NCBI GenBank assembly: GCA_024689605.1
Contig: JAILDD010000235.1
Location: 1-11,651, forward strand
Direction of reading: 5' to 3'
DNA: 11,651 nt
Origin: Lachnospiraceae bacterium
GTDB taxonomy: Bacteria > Bacillota_A > Clostridia > Lachnospirales > Lachnospiraceae
Shown here: positions 2,587 through 11,486 of the stretch, one piece after another
How the letters are laid out: every line of letters starts with the position of its first letter
Position numbering within the stretch: the first letter of the stretch is position 1
The notes under the pieces: generated by a model
Database searches by the model: none
What the model saw: only the letters and a program-made list of their open reading frames with translations
Told to the model about the DNA's origin: nothing
Position numbers and translations under genes: made by a program

Positions 2587-3513
2587 TCAGAAATCCTCAT
2601 CCTCATCATTATCCTTATCATCAGAGCTGTCATAATCAAAACTCTGATACGAATCTATATCTGCCACCAGAACCTTATTCTCTATACGCCGCCCGGGCAT
2701 TACTTCTTCCACCATGGCATCTATTTCATCAAGACGCATAATGAGATGAAGCTCAGTCCCAAGCATATCATTCTTTCTGGCAGCATCCACCATCGCATTG
2801 AGCATGGACCGAAGGTCGTCCTCACACTCCGCAAATATGCATGTGGGATACAGAACGTCATCCACAAGCTTCACCAGAAGGGCACCCGTTATCTCGTGCT
2901 TTTCCATTACAATAAAGCTCAGTTTCGGGTCATATGAACCCGGAAGTCCCTTTTTATTGAAAAAAGTCTGGCCCATTCTTGTAACACTGATGCCGTTCAG
3001 GATCTCCCTGGTCTTATAGGAAACCTGCCTGCTCAAAGGGATTACAGCCACGGGATCCTCCCTGTTCTGCTTCATCTTTTCATCCTTTAAAAGCATCCTG
3101 ACATCCGTGTACCATTCGCCGCCAAGTTCTATCTCAATGTCGAAGGAATGGCTGCGGAAAAATCCCTCGGCATCTGAAAATATGTCGTACCTGTCGTAGT
3201 CAGCGGTAAAGTAGGCACAGACGTTTTCCAGTTCGCATTCTTCCGCCATTGCAAAAATATGGTTCAGAAGTTTTTTGCCTACTCCATTTCCTCGCATTTC
3301 TTTAGCGATGAAAAACCATTCAATAATAAAATCCGTGCCTGAGGCCGTACAGATAGCAAGCCCTACCGGGGTATCCTCATCTTCATCCTCATCAGTATCC
3401 AGCACGCCAATGGCATACACCCCCGGAAATTTCGTCCTTTCCAGAAGAAGGAATGGATCCAGGCCCGCAAAATACTTCATTTGATCTTTTGTCAGTGTTA
3501 CCAGATCGATCAT
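2587..3513 (-). CDS. GNAT-family N-acetyltransferase with a second GNAT-like half and acidic tracts
   Basis: 308 residues. The N-terminal half (about 1-145) is a GNAT domain: FIIEWFFIAKEMRGNGVG carries the motif A pyrophosphate loop R74-G-N-G-V-G79, which binds acetyl-CoA, followed by helix KKLLNHIFAMA. The C-terminal half (about 150-290) has strand-helix patterns consistent with a second, degenerate GNAT fold (LSFIVMEKHEITGALLVKL). An acidic run DTDEDEDEDT (39-48) interrupts the first domain, and the protein ends in another acidic tail (about 294-308). The substrate cannot be inferred. The start codon overlaps the upstream stop by four bases (ATGA), and the ribosome site is weak, so translation is probably coupled. 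The two proteins of this unit are paralogues. It is cytoplasmic, with no signal or membrane segment. Confidence 0.8.
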   Translation of the reverse strand: MIDLVTLTKDQMKYFAGLDPFLLLERTKFPGVYAIGVLDTDEDEDEDTPVGLAICTASGTDFIIEWFFIAKEMRGNGVGKKLLNHIFAMAEECELENVCAYFTADYDRYDIFSDAEGFFRSHSFDIEIELGGEWYTDVRMLLKDEKMKQNREDPVAVIPLSRQVSYKTREILNGISVTRMGQTFFNKKGLPGSYDPKLSFIVMEKHEITGALLVKLVDDVLYPTCIFAECEDDLRSMLNAMVDAARKNDMLGTELHLIMRLDEIDAMVEEVMPGRRIENKVLVADIDSYQSFDYDSSDDKDNDEDEDF

Positions 3514-4343
3514 TTCTTACTGTCCTTAATTACCGGCACACACTCTGCGCCAGGAAAAAGCTTTGCTGCAAGCTCACTCATGGCACTGTTGTTGCGCCTG
3601 ATCACAATTTTGGTATCCTCCGTGTAATAACTTTCAGCCTCCATGGCCGTATAGCACAGCATGTACATTATATCAGCAGGATCATCGGAAAAACCTGCCA
3701 GAACACATATTTCCAGATTTTCCTCAGCATTCTTATGAAGAAGAAAAACCCCCAGCACCTCACCTTCGAAATAAAGACAGCAGGATATGTTTCTTTCAAA
3801 GAAACTCATATTGATGGTTTCCAGGTCATAAACAACACCCGTTGTGCCGCAGTAGAGACATTTTCTGATCACCCGGCCGAGCTCGCCAAAATTCAGCTCC
3901 CCTAAGCTTTTCATATAATCAGGAATATCCACGCGGTACTTTTCTGTCACATCCACTAGGTCTTTTACGCTTATTAAAACATCTTTTCCTTCGCCCTTTT
4001 CGACAGGGAACCCTTTTTTCTTTAAATAATCACTCGTGGTTTTGGTAACGTTACCCGCGATCTCAAAGGATATGTCAAGGGAAAGCCTGTCCGCATAGTC
4101 CAGAAGGTAATCGAAAACATCATCAAAAGCATCAGTGTCCTTATTTACTATATACCGGACATCAGCTCTTTTCTCGCCGGTCTTCGGTTCATTGATCATT
4201 TCCCATATTATTATGGATATGCCCTTTTCCCCCTCTGAGACCACGCCTCTGTAGCAGGCTCTCAAAACATTTTCACAGGCCGTTTTCGGAAGAAGCTTTC
4301 TGTATTTTTCAATATTAGTCGAGCTAATTTTATGAACAGACAT
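3510..4343 (-). CDS. GNAT-like paralogue lacking the acetyl-CoA motif
   Basis: 277 residues from an ATG at 4343 preceded by GGGAGG five bases away. The open frame continues to a GTG at 4520, but that would start inside the terminator of the upstream gene, so the shorter start is chosen. The N-terminus MSVHKISSTNIEKYRKLLP aligns with MIDLVTLTKDQMKYFAGLDP of the next gene. The second halves also align: ISCCLYFEGEVLGVFLLHK with LSFIVMEKHEITGALLVKL, and AAKLFPG with VEEVMPG. Where its partner has EMRGNGVG, this protein reads DTDAFDDV, so the cofactor-binding loop is gone. It may be a regulatory or structural pseudo-enzyme partner. The function is unknown; the paralogy is by eye. Confidence 0.75.
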   Translation of the reverse strand: MSVHKISSTNIEKYRKLLPKTACENVLRACYRGVVSEGEKGISIIIWEMINEPKTGEKRADVRYIVNKDTDAFDDVFDYLLDYADRLSLDISFEIAGNVTKTTSDYLKKKGFPVEKGEGKDVLISVKDLVDVTEKYRVDIPDYMKSLGELNFGELGRVIRKCLYCGTTGVVYDLETINMSFFERNISCCLYFEGEVLGVFLLHKNAEENLEICVLAGFSDDPADIMYMLCYTAMEAESYYTEDTKIVIRRNNSAMSELAAKLFPGAECVPVIKDSKK

Positions 4344-4410
4344 GAAATCCTCCCGGTCTGCATAATGCTGATAAAAACCGTCCAATTTTCTGTGCTCCGC
4401 AATCACAACC

Positions 4411-4419
4411 ATTTTACCA
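4411..4419 (-). promoter_or_regulatory. Candidate extended -10 promoter for the GNAT-like gene pair
   Basis: TGGTAAAAT on the minus strand, about 70 bases before the ATG at 4343, with no clear -35. It lies just downstream of the repeat block at 4446-4495, which would place that block in the upstream control region. Confidence 0.4.
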
Positions 4420-4445
4420 TAATTGCAGCCAGTCGAGTAGGGTAA

Positions 4446-4495
4446 AACATCATACAGGGTCCCCCTGTCTGATGTTGCATTAACGTCAGACAGGG
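4446..4495 (-). promoter_or_regulatory. Three-segment alternative hairpin block upstream of the GNAT-like pair
   Basis: Read on the minus strand, segment 1 is CCCTGTCTGACGTT (4495-4482), segment 2 is AACATCAGACAGGG (4476-4463) and segment 3 is CCCTGTATGATGTT (4459-4446). Segment 2 pairs with segment 1 over 14 positions with one G-U pair and a 5-base loop. It can instead pair with segment 3 at 13 of 14 positions with a 3-base loop, so the two stems exclude each other. No U-tract follows either one. It may be an RNA switch, a set of protein sites, or the remnant of a small repeat element. Confidence 0.6.
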
Positions 4496-4496
4496 T

Positions 4497-4532
4497 AAAA
4501 GAAAAGCCACCCTGTTTCACAACAAGGTGGCT
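4497..4532 (-). terminator. Rho-independent terminator of TM2 gene A
   Basis: On the minus strand AGCCACC (4532-4526) pairs with GGTGGCT (4511-4505). The stem extends by four more pairs after one mismatch and is followed by TTTTCTTTT. It ends transcription 28 bases after the stop of the TM2 gene at 4561. Confidence 0.85.
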
Positions 4533-4560: not shown

Positions 4561-4809
4561 TTAGAACCAGCCCTTGTGACCATCAACATAGATGGACTGG
4601 AAATCTTCATCAGACTTTGTGATGTAGATGATTCCCTCGATGAAACCGATCAGCTCAATGATGGGAAGCAGAGTTCCAAGTGAAACAAGGCTTACAGCAA
4701 GCATGATGATTGCTTCCTTAGTGTATCCAAGATAGAACTTATGAACACCGAAGCATCCTAAAAAGATTCCCAATAATGCTGCTACCATTTTACTCTTCTG
4801 ATTTTCCAT
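4561..4809 (-). CDS. TM2-domain membrane protein A
   Basis: 82 residues, two-helix TM2 protein (PF05154 type). Helix 1 (about 8-22) leads into the signature GVHKFYLGY (21-29), and helix 2 covers about 32-64. The charged C-terminus KSDEDFQSIYVDGHKGWF is shared with its neighbours. The frame extends 17 codons further, but this ATG has a GGGAGGG ribosome site and matches the start of the paralogue at 5240. It is 73 of 82 residues identical to that neighbour, with differences mostly conservative and within the helices. It has its own promoter (4878-4907) and terminator, so it is a single-gene transcription unit. TM2 proteins lie in the membrane, and their function in bacteria is not established. 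Confidence 0.9.
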   Translation of the reverse strand: MENQKSKMVAALLGIFLGCFGVHKFYLGYTKEAIIMLAVSLVSLGTLLPIIELIGFIEGIIYITKSDEDFQSIYVDGHKGWF

Positions 4810-4877
4810 TTTTTCCCTCCCTATTGTTATGCCTTCTTTGACAAATTTTCGTATGTACAAAAGTACACATCACACAT

Positions 4878-4907
4878 AATATAACACATTTCTTTGTTTT
4901 TTTGCAA
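4878..4907 (-). promoter_or_regulatory. Promoter of TM2 gene A
   Basis: -35 TTGCAA (4902-4907), 18-base spacer, -10 TATATT (4878-4883) with an upstream TGT extension. It has the same layout and the same ACTTGCAA -35 context as the promoter of TM2 gene B, suggesting that the promoter was duplicated with the gene. Confidence 0.65.
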
Positions 4908-4930
4908 GTACAAAATAAAGCTTATCACAC

Positions 4931-4964
4931 AAAGAAAACCACCCTGCCATAAATGACAGGGTGG
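4931..4964 (-). terminator. Rho-independent terminator of TM2 gene B
   Basis: CCACCCTG (minus, 4964-4957) pairs perfectly with CAGGGTGG (4946-4939) around a 10-base loop, followed by TTTTCTTT. It lies 27 bases after the stop codon of the TM2 gene at 4992. Confidence 0.9.
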
Positions 4965-4991
4965 CAATTCTCATTATCAGCTATTGTTCAA

Positions 4992-5240
4992 TTAGAACCA
5001 GCCCTTGTGGCCATCAACATAGATGGACTGGAAATCTTCATCAGACTTTGTGATGTAGATGATTCCCTCGATGAAACCGATCAGCTCAACGATAGCTGCC
5101 AGTGTACCGAGTGAAAGAAGGCTTATAACAAGCATGATGACAGCTTCCTTGGTGTATCCAAGATAGAACTTATGAACACCGAATGCTCCAAGAAAGATTC
5201 CAAGCAGACCTGCTACCATTTTACTCTTCTGATTCTCCAT
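4992..5240 (-). CDS. TM2-domain membrane protein B (tandem duplicate of A)
   Basis: 82 residues with the same plan as its downstream copy: MENQKSKMVAG, helix 1, GVHKFYLGY (21-29), helix 2, and the invariant tail from KSDEDF to GHKGWF. The nine differences from copy A are at positions 11, 19, 34, 38, 39, 42, 48, 49 and 51, all in or next to the membrane helices; the tail is unchanged. GGGAGG precedes the ATG. It has its own promoter (5318-5347) and a strong terminator. The DNA is nearly identical to copy A across the coding region but diverges quickly outside it, so the duplication is recent or kept similar by gene conversion (inference). Its role is unknown. Confidence 0.92.
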   Translation of the reverse strand: MENQKSKMVAGLLGIFLGAFGVHKFYLGYTKEAVIMLVISLLSLGTLAAIVELIGFIEGIIYITKSDEDFQSIYVDGHKGWF

Positions 5241-5295
5241 TTTTACCTCCCTGGGCTTTGCCCTTAAGATTATTTTACATACTACGCTGTGTCAA

Positions 5296-5315
5296 ACAAC
5301 ATAACACAACATAAC
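5296..5315. repeat. Perfect 10-bp tandem repeat at the TM2-B transcription start
   Basis: ACAACATAAC occurs twice without a gap (+ strand 5296-5305 and 5306-5315), starting three bases downstream of the -10 box of the TM2-B promoter. The start point would fall inside it. This is a classic repressor position, but no known operator was recognised. Confidence 0.6.
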
Positions 5316-5317
5316 GT

Positions 5318-5347
5318 ACTATAGCATATTTATATGGCTTATTGCAA
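5318..5347 (-). promoter_or_regulatory. Promoter of TM2 gene B
   Basis: -35 TTGCAA (5342-5347), 18-base spacer, -10 TATAGT (5318-5323) with TGC extension, giving a leader of about 70 bases. A second possible promoter, TTGACA with 17 bases to TAATCT, lies closer to the gene within 5265-5293 but has a weak -10. Confidence 0.65.
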
Positions 5348-5385
5348 GTATTTTTCATTGAGTAATAACAAAAACGTCATTAACA

Positions 5386-5438
5386 ATAAAAACTTTACGG
5401 TAAACCAGTGCCGATACCTGTAATCTGCTTTGTTTACC
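5386..5438 (-). terminator. Possible terminator of TM2 gene C
   Basis: GGTAAAC (minus, 5438-5432) pairs with GTTTACC (5405-5399), with a further CAG/CTG pairing inside and a run GTTTTTATT a few bases after the stem. The large loop and the gap before the T-run make it weaker than the other two. Confidence 0.45.
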
Positions 5439-5444
5439 TTCCGA

Positions 5445-5882
5445 TCAGAACCATCCCCTATGGCCTAATACATAGGTCCTATAGAAGTCCTCATCTGACT
5501 TTGTAAGATAAATTATTGCCTCAATAAGCAGGATGGGGCCTGTTATAAAGTAAACAAATCCAAGTGTCAGAGGTCCGAGTAAAAGCTGCACAAGCAGTAT
5601 GATGATACCCTCTGTAGTATAACCAAGATAAAACTTATGTATTCCAAGTCCGCCAAGGAAGAGAGCCAGCAGACCTGCCGTAACCTTATCCTTAGGTGCA
5701 GGCATATTTTGATTCATATTGGGATTGAAGCCCTGGTTGTTAGGACCTCCCTGCATGTTCTGGTTGAAACCCTGGTTGTTGAAATTCTGGTTCATATTCT
5801 GACCGTTAACCGGACCGCCCTGCATGTTCGGGTTATATCCCTGATTATTGAAATTCTGATTCATGTTCTGATTCTGATCCAT
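5445..5882 (-). CDS. TM2-domain membrane protein C with Asn/Gln-rich N-terminal repeats
   Basis: 145 residues. Residues 1-60 are a low-complexity Asn/Gln/Gly/Met region holding two imperfect 23-residue repeats (NMNQNFNNQG then YNPNMQGGP or FNQNMQGGP) and a shorter third copy. A linker PAPKDK leads to the TM2 domain: helix 1 about 67-80, signature GIHKFYLGY (80-88), helix 2 about 92-127, and the shared tail KSDEDF...YVLGHRGWF. The longer helix 2 region suggests either one long or two short segments. GGGAGG precedes the ATG. Upstream lies the terminator of gene D; no convincing promoter is visible in the 53 bases between them, so readthrough may contribute. The disordered tail is probably cytoplasmic and could mediate assembly (inference). 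Confidence 0.9.
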   Translation of the reverse strand: MDQNQNMNQNFNNQGYNPNMQGGPVNGQNMNQNFNNQGFNQNMQGGPNNQGFNPNMNQNMPAPKDKVTAGLLALFLGGLGIHKFYLGYTTEGIIILLVQLLLGPLTLGFVYFITGPILLIEAIIYLTKSDEDFYRTYVLGHRGWF

Positions 5883-5935
5883 ATTGTCCTCCCCATTATA
5901 AATTATGTGATTTTCCTATACTGCTTTTTATTCAT

Positions 5936-5961
5936 AAAACCCGACGGTCTCCCGCCGGGTT
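5936..5961 (-). terminator. Rho-independent terminator of TM2 gene D
   Basis: AACCCGGCGG and CCGTCGGGTT (minus strand) form a 10-bp stem with one G-U pair and a GAGA tetraloop, followed by a short, interrupted T-run. The stem is strong and the tail modest, so termination may be partial. Confidence 0.7.
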
Positions 5962-5997
5962 CATGGATTAATTAACCCAATCTGCTGAACCTGCAGA

Positions 5998-6237
5998 TTA
6001 CTTGGAATACTTACCGTCGATGAATACAACTTCAGCATCATTCTTGTATGCATCACCGTAAACCTTAATAAGCGCAATGATAAGGTCTACCCAGGTCCAT
6101 ACTCCGCATCCGCCAACTGTTATAAGCTTAAGTATTCCCAGAACAACCTGACCTCTCATAAAACGGTCAACACCAAAGCATCCAAGAAAAAATACATACA
6201 ACCATACCCACAGATTTTTATCAAATCTCTTTTCCAT
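5998..6237 (-). CDS. TM2-domain membrane protein D, divergent member
   Basis: 79 residues. Helix 1 (about 9-21) is followed by GVDRFMRGQ (22-30), the DRF form of the TM2 signature, then helix 2 with the [12 protein letters not shown] motif (42-53) found in the broader TM2 family. The tail [15 protein letters not shown] (65-79) resembles the KSDEDF..YVDGHKGWF tail of the three other TM2 proteins, but lacks the final GWF. It has its own strong promoter (6301-6329) and a terminator, so it appears to be separately expressed. The ATG has a GAGGAGAG ribosome site seven bases away. The family identity is clear; the function is not known. Confidence 0.9.
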
Positions 6238-6300: not shown

Positions 6301-6329
6301 ATTTTATTGACTTTCATATGCTTTGTCAA
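6301..6329 (-). promoter_or_regulatory. Strong promoter of TM2 gene D
   Basis: Perfect -35 TTGACA (6324-6329), 17-base spacer, -10 TAAAAT (6301-6306). The -35 box overlaps ATTGAC, which is mirrored by GTCAAT just before the -10, giving a dyad that spans the promoter. It begins immediately after the stop codon of the DUF2752 gene. Confidence 0.8.
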
Positions 6330-6335
6330 TAGTTT

Positions 6336-6782
6336 TCACTGCCAGTACCCGGCGAGATCCCCAAGGTAATCTATATGAAAAAAGATCATCAGCAGATTAC
6401 GGACTATGAAGTAAACAATTACTATTATAAGTATGCCCCAGGCTTCCTGATCCGTCAGCGGCGGTACCATGCGTTTTCCCCTTCCGAAGACTACACAATT
6501 ATATAGAAGCGTGCCCCATATCCGGACATAGAAAACGAACATAATTATCGGCGCAGGATTTGCAAGCAGCGACTCCCAAAGCTTGCCCTTTACAAAATAC
6601 TGAACCGACCTTGTGCCTCCGCAGGTCGGACAATAAATATGGAAGTATTTCCATAAAAAACAGGGTCCGCCAAAGGAAATATCATCAGCATGACCGCTTA
6701 GGTATATGACAAGAGGTAAGGCCGCAATACCTACTATGGTCAGAACAACAAGCCATATCCTCTGCCACCTGATATCGTACAT
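6336..6782 (-). CDS. DUF2752 family membrane protein
   Basis: 148 residues from the ATG at 6782. The open frame reaches a TTG at 6827, but that would overlap the upstream gene by 31 bases. Three membrane helices are visible (about 9-28, 76-97 and 113-136). Between the first two lies the family mark CPTCGGTR (51-58) with a preceding Cys41, matching the CPxCGxTR motif of DUF2752 (PF10825); the paired cysteines suggest metal or redox chemistry near the membrane. It starts 14 bases after the zinc-ribbon/DUF4190-like gene and is the last gene before the independently promoted TM2 genes. No terminator is seen between it and the next promoter. The function of the family is not established. Confidence 0.85.
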   Translation of the reverse strand: MYDIRWQRIWLVVLTIVGIAALPLVIYLSGHADDISFGGPCFLWKYFHIYCPTCGGTRSVQYFVKGKLWESLLANPAPIIMFVFYVRIWGTLLYNCVVFGRGKRMVPPLTDQEAWGILIIVIVYFIVRNLLMIFFHIDYLGDLAGYWQ

Positions 6783-6796
6783 AAGTGCCTGTCTTC

Positions 6797-7291
6797 TTAG
6801 AAGAATACTCCAAGTCCCATTGTGCAAAGGTCAATGATAAACTGTACCGGAATCGCACATATAGCACAGATAAGTCCTGCTATAGCCAGACCTTTCTTTG
6901 AACCGTTGTTTACGATACCCACTATGCCTAATACGATCGCTGCCATTGAAAATGCATAAAACGGATCGCAGACAAATGAAGTTATACCGAAAACAAGTGC
7001 CAGGATACATACAGTTGTCTGGTCCTTTTTCTCGGGTGCGTAGTAATTGGGCTGACCGTAAGGAGCCGAGTTGTTCGGGCCATAGGAATAACCATTGTTG
7101 TATCCCTGATTGTAACCGTTGTTATAGCCTGTATTAGTTCCGCCGGATACAGTGTCAGCACTGTTGGTTACATTCGGTATCGGATTTGATGCTGCATTAA
7201 CATTCTGAGCCGCACTTATCTCAGAACCGCAGCTCTCACAGAATCTATTGGTATCAGGATTCTCTCTTCCACAATTAGGACAATTCTTCAT
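6797..7291 (-). CDS. Zinc-ribbon membrane protein, DUF4190-like C-terminus
   Basis: 164 residues. Start set at the ATG at 7291, which places CPNCG and FCESCG at the N-terminus and has a GGGAG ribosome site; the longer frame adds 18 unremarkable residues. Residues 4-21 form a four-cysteine zinc ribbon (C4, C7, C18, C21). A low-complexity Asn/Gly/Tyr linker with repeated GYNNGYNQGYNNGY follows (about 55-85). Residues 93-157 hold two or three hydrophobic segments in the pattern of DUF4190 (LALVFGITSF, then AIVLGIVGIV, then GLAIAGLICAI). The zinc ribbon and linker should be cytoplasmic. It is separated from the previous gene by 118 bases that contain a promoter, and is closely followed by the DUF2752 gene. 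Its role may be as an adaptor (inference). Confidence 0.85.
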   Translation of the reverse strand: MKNCPNCGRENPDTNRFCESCGSEISAAQNVNAASNPIPNVTNSADTVSGGTNTGYNNGYNQGYNNGYSYGPNNSAPYGQPNYYAPEKKDQTTVCILALVFGITSFVCDPFYAFSMAAIVLGIVGIVNNGSKKGLAIAGLICAICAIPVQFIIDLCTMGLGVFF

Positions 7292-7384
7292 TTTTTCTCC
7301 CTCTTTCTTGAATCTGTCATCAACCCGTAAGGTTTCAAACGGCACACTGTTACACTTATGATTGACATAATCAAACCAATGACC

Positions 7385-7413
7385 ATTTAATCATATCTTA
7401 TTTTTTATGTCAA
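7385..7413 (-). promoter_or_regulatory. Promoter of the zinc-ribbon/DUF4190-like and DUF2752 genes
   Basis: Perfect -35 TTGACA (7408-7413), 17-base spacer, -10 TTAAAT (7385-7390) with a TGA extension. The -35 overlaps the stop codon of the preceding gene. It would let the last two genes of the cluster be expressed separately from the GTPase genes. The leader is about 90 bases. Confidence 0.6.
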
Positions 7414-7420
7414 TTGACAT
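7407..7420. promoter_or_regulatory. Perfect 14-bp palindrome over a stop codon and -35 box
   Basis: ATGTCAATTGACAT is a perfect palindrome covering the end of the two-zinc-ribbon gene and the -35 of the next promoter. Its half-site ATTGACAT recurs at 7361-7368. It is a candidate operator. Confidence 0.5.
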
Positions 7421-7904
7421 CAAATTTATCCGCTCTTCTTCCACATTCCATACATATCGTGCTGTCTGGCGGAATAACAGCACCGCATACACAGACCTTA
7501 TTTTGAATTTCGATACGAGGAACAGTGCCGGAGCCGTTCGGATCATTTATTTGATTTACCGCTCTGCCGCACCTGGGACAAAACTTTGAGTCAAATGACA
7601 GCTCTGCGCCACAGTAACCACAGTTATTCCTGTTTTTATTCTTTTGTTTTTCTATTTCCCTCTCGATATTGTTAATATCCGTATTTACCGCTTTAAGGTT
7701 TTCAAAATGGATATCCAGTTCACTCGGTGGCAGCTTTCCTTCCATATAGAGGTTATACGCCTCCATTCCGATATATCTGTATATCCTGTCCCGTTCGTTT
7801 CTTTTTTCATCCAGGGCTTTTTTATTCTCAAAACCTGTAGAAATATTATTTATGCTTCCGGATATATTTTTGCCTACTTTATCGAAAAAATCGTTTACAT
7901 CCAT
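7410..7904 (-). CDS. Coiled-coil protein with two zinc ribbons
   Basis: 164 residues from the ATG at 7904, which has a GGGAGGGGG ribosome site seven bases away. The N-terminus FFDKVGKNISGSINNISTGF is amphipathic, and residues 36-93 form a probable coiled coil. A first ribbon (C95, C98, C109, C112; CGYCG...CPRCG) and a second (C138, C140, C151, C154; CVCG...CMECG) follow. In the second the first cysteine pair is spaced by one residue rather than two. There is no membrane helix, so the protein is cytoplasmic or peripheral. Similar N-terminal-helix plus zinc-ribbon proteins are common and uncharacterised in clostridia (family recollection). It starts 27 bases after the two-helix membrane gene and is probably co-transcribed with it and the GTPase. 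Confidence 0.85.
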   Translation of the reverse strand: MDVNDFFDKVGKNISGSINNISTGFENKKALDEKRNERDRIYRYIGMEAYNLYMEGKLPPSELDIHFENLKAVNTDINNIEREIEKQKNKNRNNCGYCGAELSFDSKFCPRCGRAVNQINDPNGSGTVPRIEIQNKVCVCGAVIPPDSTICMECGRRADKFDVN

Positions 7905-7931
7905 AAAGATACCCCCTCCCAAGGATATACA

Positions 7932-9194
7932 TCAGATCAGGAATCGATCCAGTTGCTTTCTGTATTTCTCCGTCGGGCTTTCCGATAAGCTACCTGTTTC
8001 CGTTAAGTTTTCAAACAGAACATCTTTCTGTATGGCATCCAGTTCATTTTTTATGAGAATATTGGTCTGCTCCATATACTCCCGGTCCAGCCTTTGAATA
8101 CGACCTTCATTAAGCATGACCGCAAGATTCTTTTTGGCATTTTTTTGTACCTTTGTATATATCTTTCTCTTAAGCGTAGCATTCTGATAAATGAAAAATG
8201 TCAAATAAAGCGCTATTAACAAAGTAAAAATAACAAGAAGAACTATTGCCGCCTGCTTTATAAACAATTGGACAGAAGTGTCCATTGCAAATTTTCTGGT
8301 TTTATCCAGAGTTTTGACCACATGATCCAGATTATCGACCTGATCCATTAATGTCGGAGATGTCTGTTCAACCGTCTGCTCAACCACATTATTTTCAGCT
8401 TTTTTTCTTATACCGTTTGCTATCAGGAGTGTTGTTGAAACAGCTATTATCAGCATGATAGCAATGACAAAAAAGGGGATCATAAGTTTTATATTTTTTT
8501 TGCGCTTTTCTTTTTGGGTAAATACCGTCACATCGTTGCCGACAGACGATTCGAATTCAGTCAGTGCTCCGGATCCGTTATTTACCCCTGCTGTTCTTTC
8601 ATCTATCCCCATCTTAATATTTTCAAGCTTGGAACTCCATTTGCTGTATGCAGTCTTTTCAGAGATGAGATTGCTGCTAACCGCTCTTTTAACAGCCCTG
8701 TCATATTGGGAAACACTATCCTCCAATACGCTTCTTTTATACTGCGCCAGCTTTAATCTATGATTTTCGATAAGTCTGTCAATATTGTTGTTTATAACAT
8801 TATTCCTTATGAAATCCTCTCCCTTAAACTGAATTGAGATCATGTTGTTAAATTCCCTCTCCGTATGGTTGGAAATGTCATTTATTCCATTTTCGGATTT
8901 CAGTCGGAGATTATCCAGACTGTCATGACAATCTGAAATGATTCCCTGAAGTTCTTTTTCCTTATTTAAAGATTCAGTCACTTTGACTTGAGACAATTCC
9001 GGATGTGAGGCCTCGATATGATCCAGGACATCATAAAGAACTCCCGTTATAGTCCGGATATTGTAATTTCCCTGCGTTACAAGAATTTTGGTATCATTAA
9101 GAGAATCGATAACACGGGATCTGCATCCGCACTTATATGCCAGTTCTTTTATTTCTTCGGTTAGTGCAATAAGCTCATTATCTCTGTCGTTCAT
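7932..9194 (-). CDS. Coiled-coil membrane protein with two transmembrane helices, unknown family
   Basis: 420 residues. A GTG twelve bases upstream is an alternative start, but AAGGTG lies nine bases before this ATG. Residues 1-230 are highly charged and helical, with probable coiled coils. KEKRKK (228-233) precedes helix 1 (about 237-260), a 50-residue loop follows, then helix 2 (about 313-336) followed by KRK, so both ends should face the cytoplasm. Residues 340-420 are again helical and charged. No catalytic motif is visible. The gene begins 24 bases after the dynamin-like GTPase stops, so the two are almost certainly co-transcribed. A membrane receptor or regulator for the GTPase is a reasonable guess. 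I do not recognise the family. Confidence 0.85.
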   Translation of the reverse strand: MNDRDNELIALTEEIKELAYKCGCRSRVIDSLNDTKILVTQGNYNIRTITGVLYDVLDHIEASHPELSQVKVTESLNKEKELQGIISDCHDSLDNLRLKSENGINDISNHTEREFNNMISIQFKGEDFIRNNVINNNIDRLIENHRLKLAQYKRSVLEDSVSQYDRAVKRAVSSNLISEKTAYSKWSSKLENIKMGIDERTAGVNNGSGALTEFESSVGNDVTVFTQKEKRKKNIKLMIPFFVIAIMLIIAVSTTLLIANGIRKKAENNVVEQTVEQTSPTLMDQVDNLDHVVKTLDKTRKFAMDTSVQLFIKQAAIVLLVIFTLLIALYLTFFIYQNATLKRKIYTKVQKNAKKNLAVMLNEGRIQRLDREYMEQTNILIKNELDAIQKDVLFENLTETGSLSESPTEKYRKQLDRFLI

Positions 9195-9218
9195 ATCTCT
9201 ACACACCTTTTTATTCTT

Positions 9219-11045
9219 TTAGTTTTCATCTGCAGGGTGGCTTTTGTCTTCCAGCCTGAGCTGACCTAACAGAAGATCCACTTCATTAATGTGGTCTTCG
9301 AGCTTCGGGATATTCTGGCTCTCTTTACTTATACTGATACGATATTCCGCAAAAACTCTGTCCGCACCATTTATCCCCGTAATGAATATCTCATCGATCT
9401 TTCTTGTGAGTTCTACCTTCATCTGCTCTTTGATGCGCATTAGATCCTGTTCGAATTCTTCCAGCGCTTTTTGAAATTTCGCATCCATCTGTGAATCCGC
9501 GCAGGCACTGGCTATCTTATGAGCAAGGGCAGCTATCGCAATCGCACCTATTGCACCGACGACTATAGGAATAAGCAAACCGCCTATAGCTGCTCCGGCA
9601 CCTACAGTAGCTACTCCTCCCGCTGTAATAGCAGCAAGACCTTCTGTACCGACAGCGATCGCTCCTGCTCCGAGAAATCCGCCGGCACCACCTACTGCCG
9701 CTCCCAGTCCGGTAGATGTTCCCACTACCAGATCAGCTTCTTTTCGTGCCTTCATGCCTTTTTCATATAGTTCCTTTGTGACAACATCAAATGATGAATA
9801 TGCTTTCTTTGTGTCGTCAATGGTATTTTTTACATTTGCCACTATATGATTTTTTGACTCTGCAATGGTTCCGTAAAACTTATCTTCGATACCTATACAG
9901 TTCTCTCTTCCTGATAATTTCTCGGATGCTTTGTCGAGAATGATCTGCATATCGGTCATAAGGGTCTGTACAGAGGAGCTTACAGTATCATTAACTTTTT
10001 TGCTCATCCTTTCTTTATAAATGTTATTGACATAATTCAGATAATCCATCAGATCGGAGTATCCCTTGGGAAACTGTTCCTTGACACGCTTGGGATTCAT
10101 TCTCTTGATGATCTCATTTTTGTATTCTTCTATTTCCCTGTCGACTACATTCTCAATCTCTTTTTTGAGATTCTCAACACGTACAGACTCATCAGCCCTG
10201 TAATCGTCGATCATTGAATTAATATCTGCAACGATCAGCTTGTCTTTCTCATACTGGGAACGACGCAGATCAAATGACTGCCTGATTTCTGTGAACATCT
10301 TTCTGATATAGAAAGAATTCGAATCCTGCTTTGAAATTCCCTCGTTGTTTGCAATGATCTCATCATCAATATAGCTTTTAAGCTGTTCTATTTCGGAACA
10401 TTCGGAATCAACAATAGAAGTACAGAAAACAGGAGCAACTATTCCCGCCTCTCCCATATACCTGTTTATTCTCTCAAGGACTTCCGTCTTGCGAATATCA
10501 GGCACTTCATCAATCTTTGAAACAATAAAGACTACTTTCTTCGGATCAGTGGATTCTATCGCATTCCAGACAGACATGCTACCGGGATTCTGAGCAGACA
10601 AAACGACCAGAAGCACATCGCTTTTATCTACATTCTCCTTTATAAAATCCATAGTTTCCGGGTTATTGACCTTATCGGCACCAAAGGTGTCTATTATAGA
10701 TATGCCCTTAAGTATATCGATATGATTAAATATTCTTCTGCAGAATCCTGTAATCTGGAATTCTGCATATTCATCACCGTATCTGTAATCAATGATCTCA
10801 TCTCTTTGGGTGTGTGATAAAAAAGGAGCACTGCCGAACAATGCCTTAAGCAGGGATGTTTTGCCGGTACCGGCTTCGCCTATGACCATAAACTGAAAAT
10901 TGTCCGAGATCTCCCTGAGATATTTTTTGATTATCTCCTTTTCCTCGAAAGCATCAGAATCTCCAAGGATCCTGTTCATGCGTTCGGTTATATCGATCTC
11001 TATCTGTTTGTTACCGTAGTTAAAAGGGAGATTACTGATTTCCAT
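9219..11045 (-). CDS. Dynamin-like GTPase with glycine/alanine-rich membrane segment
   Basis: 608 residues. The G domain has P-loop GEAGTGKTS (56-64), a G3 motif DTFG (119-122) and a G4-like SKID (176-179). Residues 245-435 are long and charged, consistent with a helical stalk. Residues 436-510 are a Gly/Ala/Val/Ile-rich hydrophobic stretch resembling the membrane-inserting paddle of bacterial dynamin-like proteins. Residues 511-600 are helical again (EEFEQDLMRIKEQMKVELTRK). This order of G domain, helical bundle, hydrophobic paddle and returning helices argues for membrane binding or remodelling by self-assembly. G4 departs from the usual NKxD, since Ser replaces Asn. It is followed by a two-helix coiled-coil protein 24 bases away. 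GAGGAAAA precedes the ATG. An alternative is a soluble TRAFAC-class GTPase without membrane fission activity. Confidence 0.85.
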   Translation of the reverse strand: MEISNLPFNYGNKQIEIDITERMNRILGDSDAFEEKEIIKKYLREISDNFQFMVIGEAGTGKTSLLKALFGSAPFLSHTQRDEIIDYRYGDEYAEFQITGFCRRIFNHIDILKGISIIDTFGADKVNNPETMDFIKENVDKSDVLLVVLSAQNPGSMSVWNAIESTDPKKVVFIVSKIDEVPDIRKTEVLERINRYMGEAGIVAPVFCTSIVDSECSEIEQLKSYIDDEIIANNEGISKQDSNSFYIRKMFTEIRQSFDLRRSQYEKDKLIVADINSMIDDYRADESVRVENLKKEIENVVDREIEEYKNEIIKRMNPKRVKEQFPKGYSDLMDYLNYVNNIYKERMSKKVNDTVSSSVQTLMTDMQIILDKASEKLSGRENCIGIEDKFYGTIAESKNHIVANVKNTIDDTKKAYSSFDVVTKELYEKGMKARKEADLVVGTSTGLGAAVGGAGGFLGAGAIAVGTEGLAAITAGGVATVGAGAAIGGLLIPIVVGAIGAIAIAALAHKIASACADSQMDAKFQKALEEFEQDLMRIKEQMKVELTRKIDEIFITGINGADRVFAEYRISISKESQNIPKLEDHINEVDLLLGQLRLEDKSHPADEN

Positions 11046-11120: not shown

Positions 11121-11486
11121 TTAACCATATAATGAATCCATGACAGCCATGAAGAACGGTATGAAAATCCATGGACCTATTCCCAGTACCACGCTTATTA
11201 TCGGCATCCAGATCAGTTTGTACTGCTTTTTTACCAGGTCGATTATAGCTACAACTAAGCCCGTCAGCCCGCCAATGGCACCGATGATCAAGAATCCCGC
11301 TATAAACAACACCATCCCTGTAAGACCTATAACTGCCTCATTTGTTACTGCCGTATGGCTGCTGCCTGTCCCGGCAAATGCCAGGCTGAAAAAGACCATG
11401 ATCCCCGACAGGATCTCCAGCCCCGTTATAACAAGCGACACGATCGACACTATCAAACAGCCTTTTGATGTTTTTTTCTCTTCCAT
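11121..11486 (-). CDS. Small multi-pass membrane protein, unknown family
   Basis: 121 residues. A short charged N-terminus MEEKKTSKG is followed by hydrophobic segments at about 11-38, 51-85 (long enough for two helices, glycine-rich) and 92-117, so three or four transmembrane helices in total. A KKQYK motif between the last two should face the cytoplasm. No catalytic residue or named domain is recognisable; the general look resembles small DUF4190-like proteins. GGAGGGAG precedes the ATG. It is on the same strand and 75 bases upstream of the GTPase, with no terminator between them, so co-transcription is possible. A shared 10-bp element upstream of both genes points to common control. Confidence 0.8.
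   Translation of the reverse strand: MEEKKTSKGCLIVSIVSLVITGLEILSGIMVFFSLAFAGTGSSHTAVTNEAVIGLTGMVLFIAGFLIIGAIGGLTGLVVAIIDLVKKQYKLIWMPIISVVLGIGPWIFIPFFMAVMDSLYG

Follow-up and report, generated by a model that had tools for sequence, protein, structure and literature searches.

Introduction

Bacterial dynamins usually occur as pairs (PMC4159319; PMC6104087). In enterotoxigenic Escherichia coli, the dynamin-like protein LeoA (PDB 4aur), which carries a Gly-rich paddle, is encoded in an operon with its partner, a second dynamin split between LeoB and LeoC (PMC4159319). The same paired-operon logic is described for Cj-DLP1/DLP2 of Campylobacter jejuni (PMC6104087; PDB 5owv, 5oxf), where both partners are dynamins, and for BDLP1 of Nostoc (PDB 2j69), where the second gene is another dynamin (PMC4159319); in DynA of Bacillus subtilis, two dynamins are fused into one protein (PMC6104087; PMC4159319). 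IniA and IniC of mycobacteria belong to a three-gene operon, iniBAC, that includes a non-dynamin member (PMC6715688). Here we analyze an 11,651-nucleotide stretch of DNA from a Lachnospiraceae bacterium (GenBank assembly GCA_024689605.1, contig JAILDD010000235.1; hereafter the window) that carries a cassette of three genes, which we read as a dynamin operon in which a GTPase-less membrane partner and a candidate zinc-ribbon adaptor stand in for the usual second dynamin.

Results

Genes 1 to 3 keep their order in distant relatives

The window carries five consecutive genes on the minus strand, running from position 11045 down to 6336 with intergenic gaps of 24, 27, 118, and 14 bases, as computed from ATG starts with a plausible ribosome site (Table 1). 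The gene 2 open reading frame (ORF) opens at a GTG at 9206, and most homologues begin at the ATG at 9194; the gene 3 ORF starts at 7922, and its ATG at 7904 is preceded by GGGAGGGGG. The row and its gaps are as reported in the original prediction, made from the letters of the window, which had joined all five genes in one membrane-remodelling module.

We read the loci of those strong GTPase relatives whose downstream side lies on the contig: two from the same genus (G001, G006), two from the same family (G287, G710), and two from two other families of the order (G684, G516). All six show the order gene 1-gene 2-gene 3, which exceeds chance; a seventh relative, G1056, is cut by the end of its contig. 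Because gene 1 identity to the window falls from 100% in G001 and 80% in G006 to 30% in G287, 24% in G710 and G516, and 23% in G684, this order reflects more than recent shared ancestry. At the junctions, neighbouring genes overlap by up to 11 bases or lie up to 27 bases apart; G710 is the exception, with a 35-base overlap between its called ORFs of genes 1 and 2. The proposed link of the GTPase with the protein bearing two transmembrane (TM) helices and with the first zinc-ribbon protein therefore stands in every readable locus.

The ratio of nonsynonymous to synonymous substitution rates (dN/dS) against G001 and G006 is 0.03-0.08 for gene 1, 0.18-0.23 for gene 2, and 0.09-0.10 for gene 3, with dS to G006 near or past saturation; these values suggest purifying selection on all three. 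The fraction of G and C (GC) is 0.398 in the cassette compared to 0.444 and 0.456 in two neighbouring stretches, which is compatible with transfer without proving it.

Genes 4 and 5 are a separate resident pair

Gene 4 matches a zinc ribbon (3.3e-8, Pfam) and, weakly, DUF4190 (18.3 bits against a cut-off of 35), and gene 5 is a clear DUF2752 protein (1.1e-12). These two genes occur without the cassette. G032, a genome of the same genus that is 85% complete and has no GTPase match, keeps the flanking cluster without genes 1 to 3; the order there is the small membrane gene (equivalent to 11121-11486), genes 4 and 5, TM2 genes, two GNAT-like genes, and an amylase-like gene (the GNAT-like and amylase-like names were assigned by eye). 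Its best matches are 58-99% identical per gene, upstream genes included. At the DNA level, both flanks of the G001 cassette align with G032 (G001 L010 9554-9908 with G032 L060 8721-9075, and L010 13887-14110 with L060 9184-9411), where 108 bp replaces about 4 kb. This empty site shows genes 1 to 3 to be present or absent as a set. Three further genomes without a GTPase match, G025 (where it lies near a contig end), G028, and G002, carry the gene 4-5 pair as well.

Conversely, at a tblastn threshold of 0.01, gene 4 and gene 5 both lack a match at the four distant cassette loci, those of G287, G710, G684 (whose contig is 7 kb), and G516. In G006, the cassette lies in the same neighbourhood as in the window, with inverted genes between gene 3 and gene 4. 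Because the pair occurs without the cassette and the cassette without the pair, we take the 118-base gap as the border of an accessory unit. The shared strand, the short gaps (24-118 bases), and the same five-gene row in G001 would fit a single functional module running from the GTPase to DUF2752, as would the TM2 gene that directly follows gene 3 in G516, since this type sits just beyond gene 5 in the window. The comparison of relatives largely contradicts this reading, which we consider very improbable: genes 1 to 3 stay together, as a shared pathway would lead one to expect, and genes 4 and 5 come apart from them. The inclusion of the DUF4190-like and DUF2752 genes in the module is not upheld, and it is as a three-gene accessory cassette that the unit holds.

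Gene 1 encodes a LeoA-like dynamin-like protein

The AlphaFold2 (AF2) model of gene 1, built from four sequences, has low confidence, with a predicted local distance difference test (pLDDT) of 64.6 and a predicted template modelling score of 0.48. It shows a G domain at about residues 50-231, followed by long helices at 235-315, 329-378, 394-444, and 517-601 with short breaks between them; with the Foldseek matches, this low-confidence model shows the neck and trunk helical bundle expected behind the G domain of a dynamin. Foldseek ranks 1-10 against the PDB are all bacterial dynamins: BDLP1 (2j69) at rank 1 (E 1.1e-10), LeoA (4aur), a protein of similar size, at rank 2 (E 2.5e-9), the Cj-DLPs (5owv/5oxf) at ranks 3, 4, 6, 7, and 10, and IniA (6j73/6j72), the match to the IniA/IniC system, at ranks 5, 8, and 9.

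Profile searches agree. The PADLOC models of LeoA, LeoBC, and mad8 all match gene 1, and the LeoA profile scores 1.4e-11 on the window protein (best stretch residues 215-588) and 1.1e-21 on the G684 copy, near full length (residues 1-580). Pfam Dynamin_N gives 64.1 bits (2e-17) on the G684 copy, 21 bits on the window protein (under the cut-off of 27), and 14.9 bits on that of G710, and the Pfam scan reported no Dynamin_N match for the G287 or G516 copies; PduV-EutP reaches 30.7 bits on the window protein (cut-off 21). The best PDB sequence-profile match is an immunity-related GTPase, mouse IRGB10 (PDB 8jqy, 7c3k; 1.5e-8, positions 6-190), followed by other GTPases and BDLP (2.2e-6). The IRGB10 stretch differs from the Foldseek result in covering the N-terminal and G-domain part, with the trunk and paddle outside. 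We conclude that gene 1 is a LeoA-like dynamin-like protein, as the original prediction of a dynamin-like GTPase had it.

Hydropathy peaks at residues 447-465, 469-487, and 490-508, and peaks lie at the matching place in all five other copies tested (G006, G287, G710, G684, G516). In the model, this Gly/Ala-rich segment sits between trunk helices, with pLDDT <50 at 440-504. Position and hydropathy both fit a paddle; exposure for membrane insertion, which the original prediction expected of residues 436-510, is a predicted feature.

The nucleotide-binding motifs vary among gene 1 copies. The window protein has an Arg in the column that holds the G2 Thr of G684 and of another relative, P0009, with a Thr two residues earlier; the P-loop Lys is Arg in G287 and G710, and P0009 has lost G4. 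In G516, the whole G domain is absent, the protein is in frame, and the N-terminal helix runs straight into the neck helix; this loss rests on one assembly. Other dynamin-like genes lie outside the cassette in two of these genomes: four Dynamin_N matches that pass the cut-off fall in some 22 kb of G287 contig 33 (150-172 kb), and three in about 5 kb of G684 contig 98.

Gene 2 encodes a divergent two-TM protein and gene 3 a double zinc ribbon

Both TM helices of gene 2 are strongly hydrophobic, and their starts are 75-78 residues apart in the proteins of the window, G006, G287, G710, and G516, and 96 apart in that of G684. The window protein shares about 60% identity with the G006 copy and 11-16% with the distant ones. 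Against it, a profile built from the four distant proteins nevertheless scores 56.1 over 135 columns; the highest score among 89 other proteins is 27.6, and among 30 shuffles 19.2. Gene 2 diverges fast, yet it is one divergent family. Neither gene 2 nor its relatives have a Pfam or PADLOC dynamin match.

Gene 3 matches Zn_Ribbon_1 (1.5e-9) and DZR (2.3e-7) in Pfam and is 32-36% identical to the G287 copy. Seven cysteines (C101, C104, C115, C118, C146, C157, and C160, in 170-residue numbering) are invariant in the six aligned copies. Its PDB sequence matches span the ribbon part only, and a function as an adaptor is our suggestion.

A proposed membrane-acting complex and the possible origin of gene 2

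Genes 1 to 3 are probably an accessory operon, transcribed as one unit, whose products form a single complex acting on the membrane. Within it, the LeoA-like dynamin would associate with the inner side of this membrane via its hydrophobic paddle. Gene 2 would be a membrane-resident partner, inserted through its two helices in place of the second dynamin of most bacterial dynamin operons, and perhaps derived from that dynamin minus its G domain. Gene 3, a small cytosolic double zinc ribbon, would be the adaptor joining or regulating the other two. Such a complex would likely serve to remodel, tether, or repair the cytoplasmic membrane when the cell is under stress.

A possible origin of gene 2 is suggested by the G684 copy, which is longer by about 200 amino acids at the N terminus. 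Its residues 38-237 give a collinear alignment to the dynamin G domain that scores 34.7 (P 0.0016), with 21.2 as the highest of 20 shuffles; the G-domain profile alone scores 27.3 (best of 40 shuffles 19.3), and the sequence VIGDKKTNKEA sits where the P-loop would be. This G-domain-like stretch is suggestive only. Because bacterial dynamins are usually paired, one simple history is that gene 2 may be a former second dynamin that lost its G domain. Alternatively, gene 2 could be an independent two-TM family with no second-dynamin ancestry, one that recruits a lone dynamin and has gene 3 for a cytosolic adaptor. In the window group, gene 2 has no similarity to the dynamin (P 0.55), no copy clearly beats its shuffles against the dynamin stalk, and the wide spacing of the two TM helices is not that of a paddle. 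The collinear stretch of the G684 copy, weak as it is, speaks against this alternative, which we rate as quite plausible if short of probable.

Several points weigh against the complex proposed above and against a dynamin origin of gene 2. Foldseek TM-scores (template modelling scores) for gene 1 are low in the top ten rows (0.24-0.32 by query length, root mean square deviation 17-42), and the AF2 models are poor (pLDDT 64.6 and 67.7). Some pairwise gene 2 comparisons are weak, with P 0.006-0.007 for G287 and G710 against the window and 0.11 for the window and G006 proteins against G516, and no PDB match to gene 2 reaches E 0.001. The candidate G-domain relic has P 0.0068 with an 8-row profile; the best control lacking a P-loop scored 31.8 over 52 columns compared to its 34.7, and the 89 controls include five true P-loop proteins, all with higher scores (46.8 to 123.5). 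Against the dynamin stalk, gene 2 proteins score 12.6-19.4 with shuffle maxima of 17.4-20.6, so that nothing is callable. In G516, a TM2-domain gene (L034 5528-5974, minus strand) adjoins gene 3 on the same strand about 40 bases on. TM2 genes are a resident cluster type in the window, and the other distant loci have no TM2 match; the arrangement may be chance or may mark a functional tie between small TM2 proteins and the cassette. Finally, the interaction of the three products is a predicted one, and because the nucleotide motifs are eroded in several gene 1 members, GTP-driven action by cassette dynamins is not assured.

A variant of the proposed complex is that this is a dynamin operon dropping its GTPase. 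Its partner dynamin would have turned into the two-TM protein that lacks a G domain, and the remaining dynamin has an eroded P-loop in G287 and G710 and no G domain in G516, so that a scaffold of dynamin stalk and paddle would work without GTP, together with a membrane anchor and a zinc ribbon. We put this forward tentatively, as a possibility on the unlikely side.

The three-gene unit is rare, with a proposed role in membrane upkeep

Several of the rarity searches scored part of their candidates, and the counts are lower bounds. Strong GTPase matches occur in at least 2 of 35 genomes of the genus, at least 2 of 397 of the family (G001 and one other), and at least 4 of 392 of the order, G001 included. 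Around the distant carriers, they occur in at least 1 of 48 genomes of the family of G684, 2 of 71 of the genus of G710, 1 of 2 of the genus of G287, and 1 of 38 of the family of G516. A search of 5.8 billion proteins returned at least nine gene 1 relatives, from 7,998 scored candidates sharing most words, and five gene 2 relatives. A broad gene 2 profile found 3 of 285 genomes of the order; because every one of these is a cassette carrier, no clear gene 2 was seen apart from gene 1. The three-gene unit is rare.

Such a patchy spread, with clean presence or absence at one site, the low GC of the cassette, and the matches of gene 1 to the LeoA, LeoBC, and mad8 models, is also what anti-phage defence could look like, with the dynamin and its partner acting on the membrane of the infected cell to delay lysis or seal damage. 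B. subtilis DynA is reported to confer phage resistance and to serve in membrane surveillance (PMC8844932). The neighbours in G287, G710, G684, and G516, however, resemble housekeeping, transport, or small membrane genes rather than defence genes (named by eye), no relative was found in the viral contigs or plasmids searched, and good PADLOC matches are limited to gene 1 and its relatives: genes 2-5 and the scanned relatives of gene 2 and of one gene 3 gave none or matches at 0.0018-0.074. We consider defence unlikely.

LeoA and LeoBC are among the closest dynamin relatives, and leoA and leoB knock-outs cut vesicle release by roughly half (PMC4159319), so the cassette could instead aid membrane-vesicle release or secretion, as LeoABC does in E. 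coli. LeoA alone, however, is described as having no nucleotide or lipid binding (PMC4159319). No secretion gene was seen near the cassette. To our knowledge, Lachnospiraceae have no outer membrane, which also counts against vesicle release; we think this role rather less likely still than defence. Membrane upkeep under stress is our first choice for the role, with phage defence second; both are proposals.

Neighbouring genes and coordinates

Beside the gene 4-5 pair, four TM2-domain genes lie in a row (4561-6237, minus strand), two of them nearly identical in the core, and several TM2 copies are found at the corresponding place in G001, G006, and G032. Of the promoter-like sites in the region scanned, the best, TTGACA-17-TAAAAT (11/12), lies at 6301-6329 on the minus strand, just after gene 5 and before the first TM2 gene. 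Further on, at 2587-4520 (minus strand), are two adjacent genes of 308 and 336 amino acids with a 4-base overlap, found at the same place in G001, G006, and G032; the first has weak GNAT matches and the second is GNAT-like by eye. The gap between genes 3 and 4 is 257 bases in G001 compared to 118 in the window, and the extra part (L010 13754-13857), with its three consecutive tight inverted repeats of 11-14 bases, resembles a small palindromic insertion. Upstream of the cassette, G001 has a second, different DUF2752-like gene (L010 7836-8219, named by its sequence) with matches in G006 and G032.

Table 1 Coordinates of the cassette, its neighbours, and motifs in the window, and of one relative (locus L034).
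Feature	Position	Strand	Remark
Gene 1, LeoA-like dynamin-like protein, 608 aa (amino acids)	9219..11045	-	cassette core
Gene 2, helical protein with two TM helices, 420 aa	7932..9194	-	cassette core
Gene 3, helical-looking N-terminal part and double zinc ribbon, 164 aa	7410..7904	-	cassette core
Gene 4, zinc ribbon and DUF4190-like membrane protein	6797..7291	-	resident, outside cassette
Gene 5, DUF2752 membrane protein	6336..6782	-	resident, outside cassette
Small membrane protein, resident, upstream border of cassette	11121..11486	-	in G032, aligned end 108 bp from aligned gene 4 start
Gene 1 G1/P-loop GEAGTGKT, residues 56-63	10857..10880	-	motif columns
Gene 1 G3 motif DTFG, residues 119-122	10680..10691	-	sequence motif
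Gene 1 G4-like motif SKID, residues 176-179, first position non-canonical	10509..10520	-	sequence motif
Gene 1 Gly/Ala-rich hydrophobic paddle-like segment, about residues 445-510	9516..9713	-	hydropathy
Gene 2 TM helix 1, residues 241-259	8418..8474	-	strong hydrophobicity
Gene 2 TM helix 2, residues 317-335	8190..8246	-	strong hydrophobicity
G516 G-domain-less dynamin	L034 7567-8685	-	rest of three-gene row looks intact

Discussion

Bacterial dynamins are thought to act as heterotypic pairs, and what the second partner contributes is a question that this cassette could address. A compact operon with a G-domain-less membrane partner, together with a relative whose dynamin has no motor domain, would make the roles of scaffold, anchor, and GTPase separable.

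Among the known systems, the MADS defence system is similar at one point, its mad8 model matching gene 1 at 8e-8; in a PADLOC scan of genes 1-5 of the window, the other four genes have no mad match at 0.1. The cassette differs from BDLP1 and DynA, as from Cj-DLP1/DLP2, in that its dynamin is joined neither to nor by a second one, and zinc goes unmentioned in the main text of PMC6104087. The iniBAC operon resembles the cassette in its three genes, and the part of PMC6715688 drawn on here mentions neither a two-TM partner nor a zinc ribbon. With LeoABC, the likeness lies in gene 1, which corresponds to the LeoA dynamin by profile, and the paddle and the operon with a partner are shared. The second, split dynamin formed by LeoB and LeoC has no counterpart in the gene 2 family as judged by PADLOC and Pfam. 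Instead of a second full dynamin, the window has a partner with two widely spaced TM helices and no G domain, and the cassette includes, as its constant third member, a double zinc ribbon protein.

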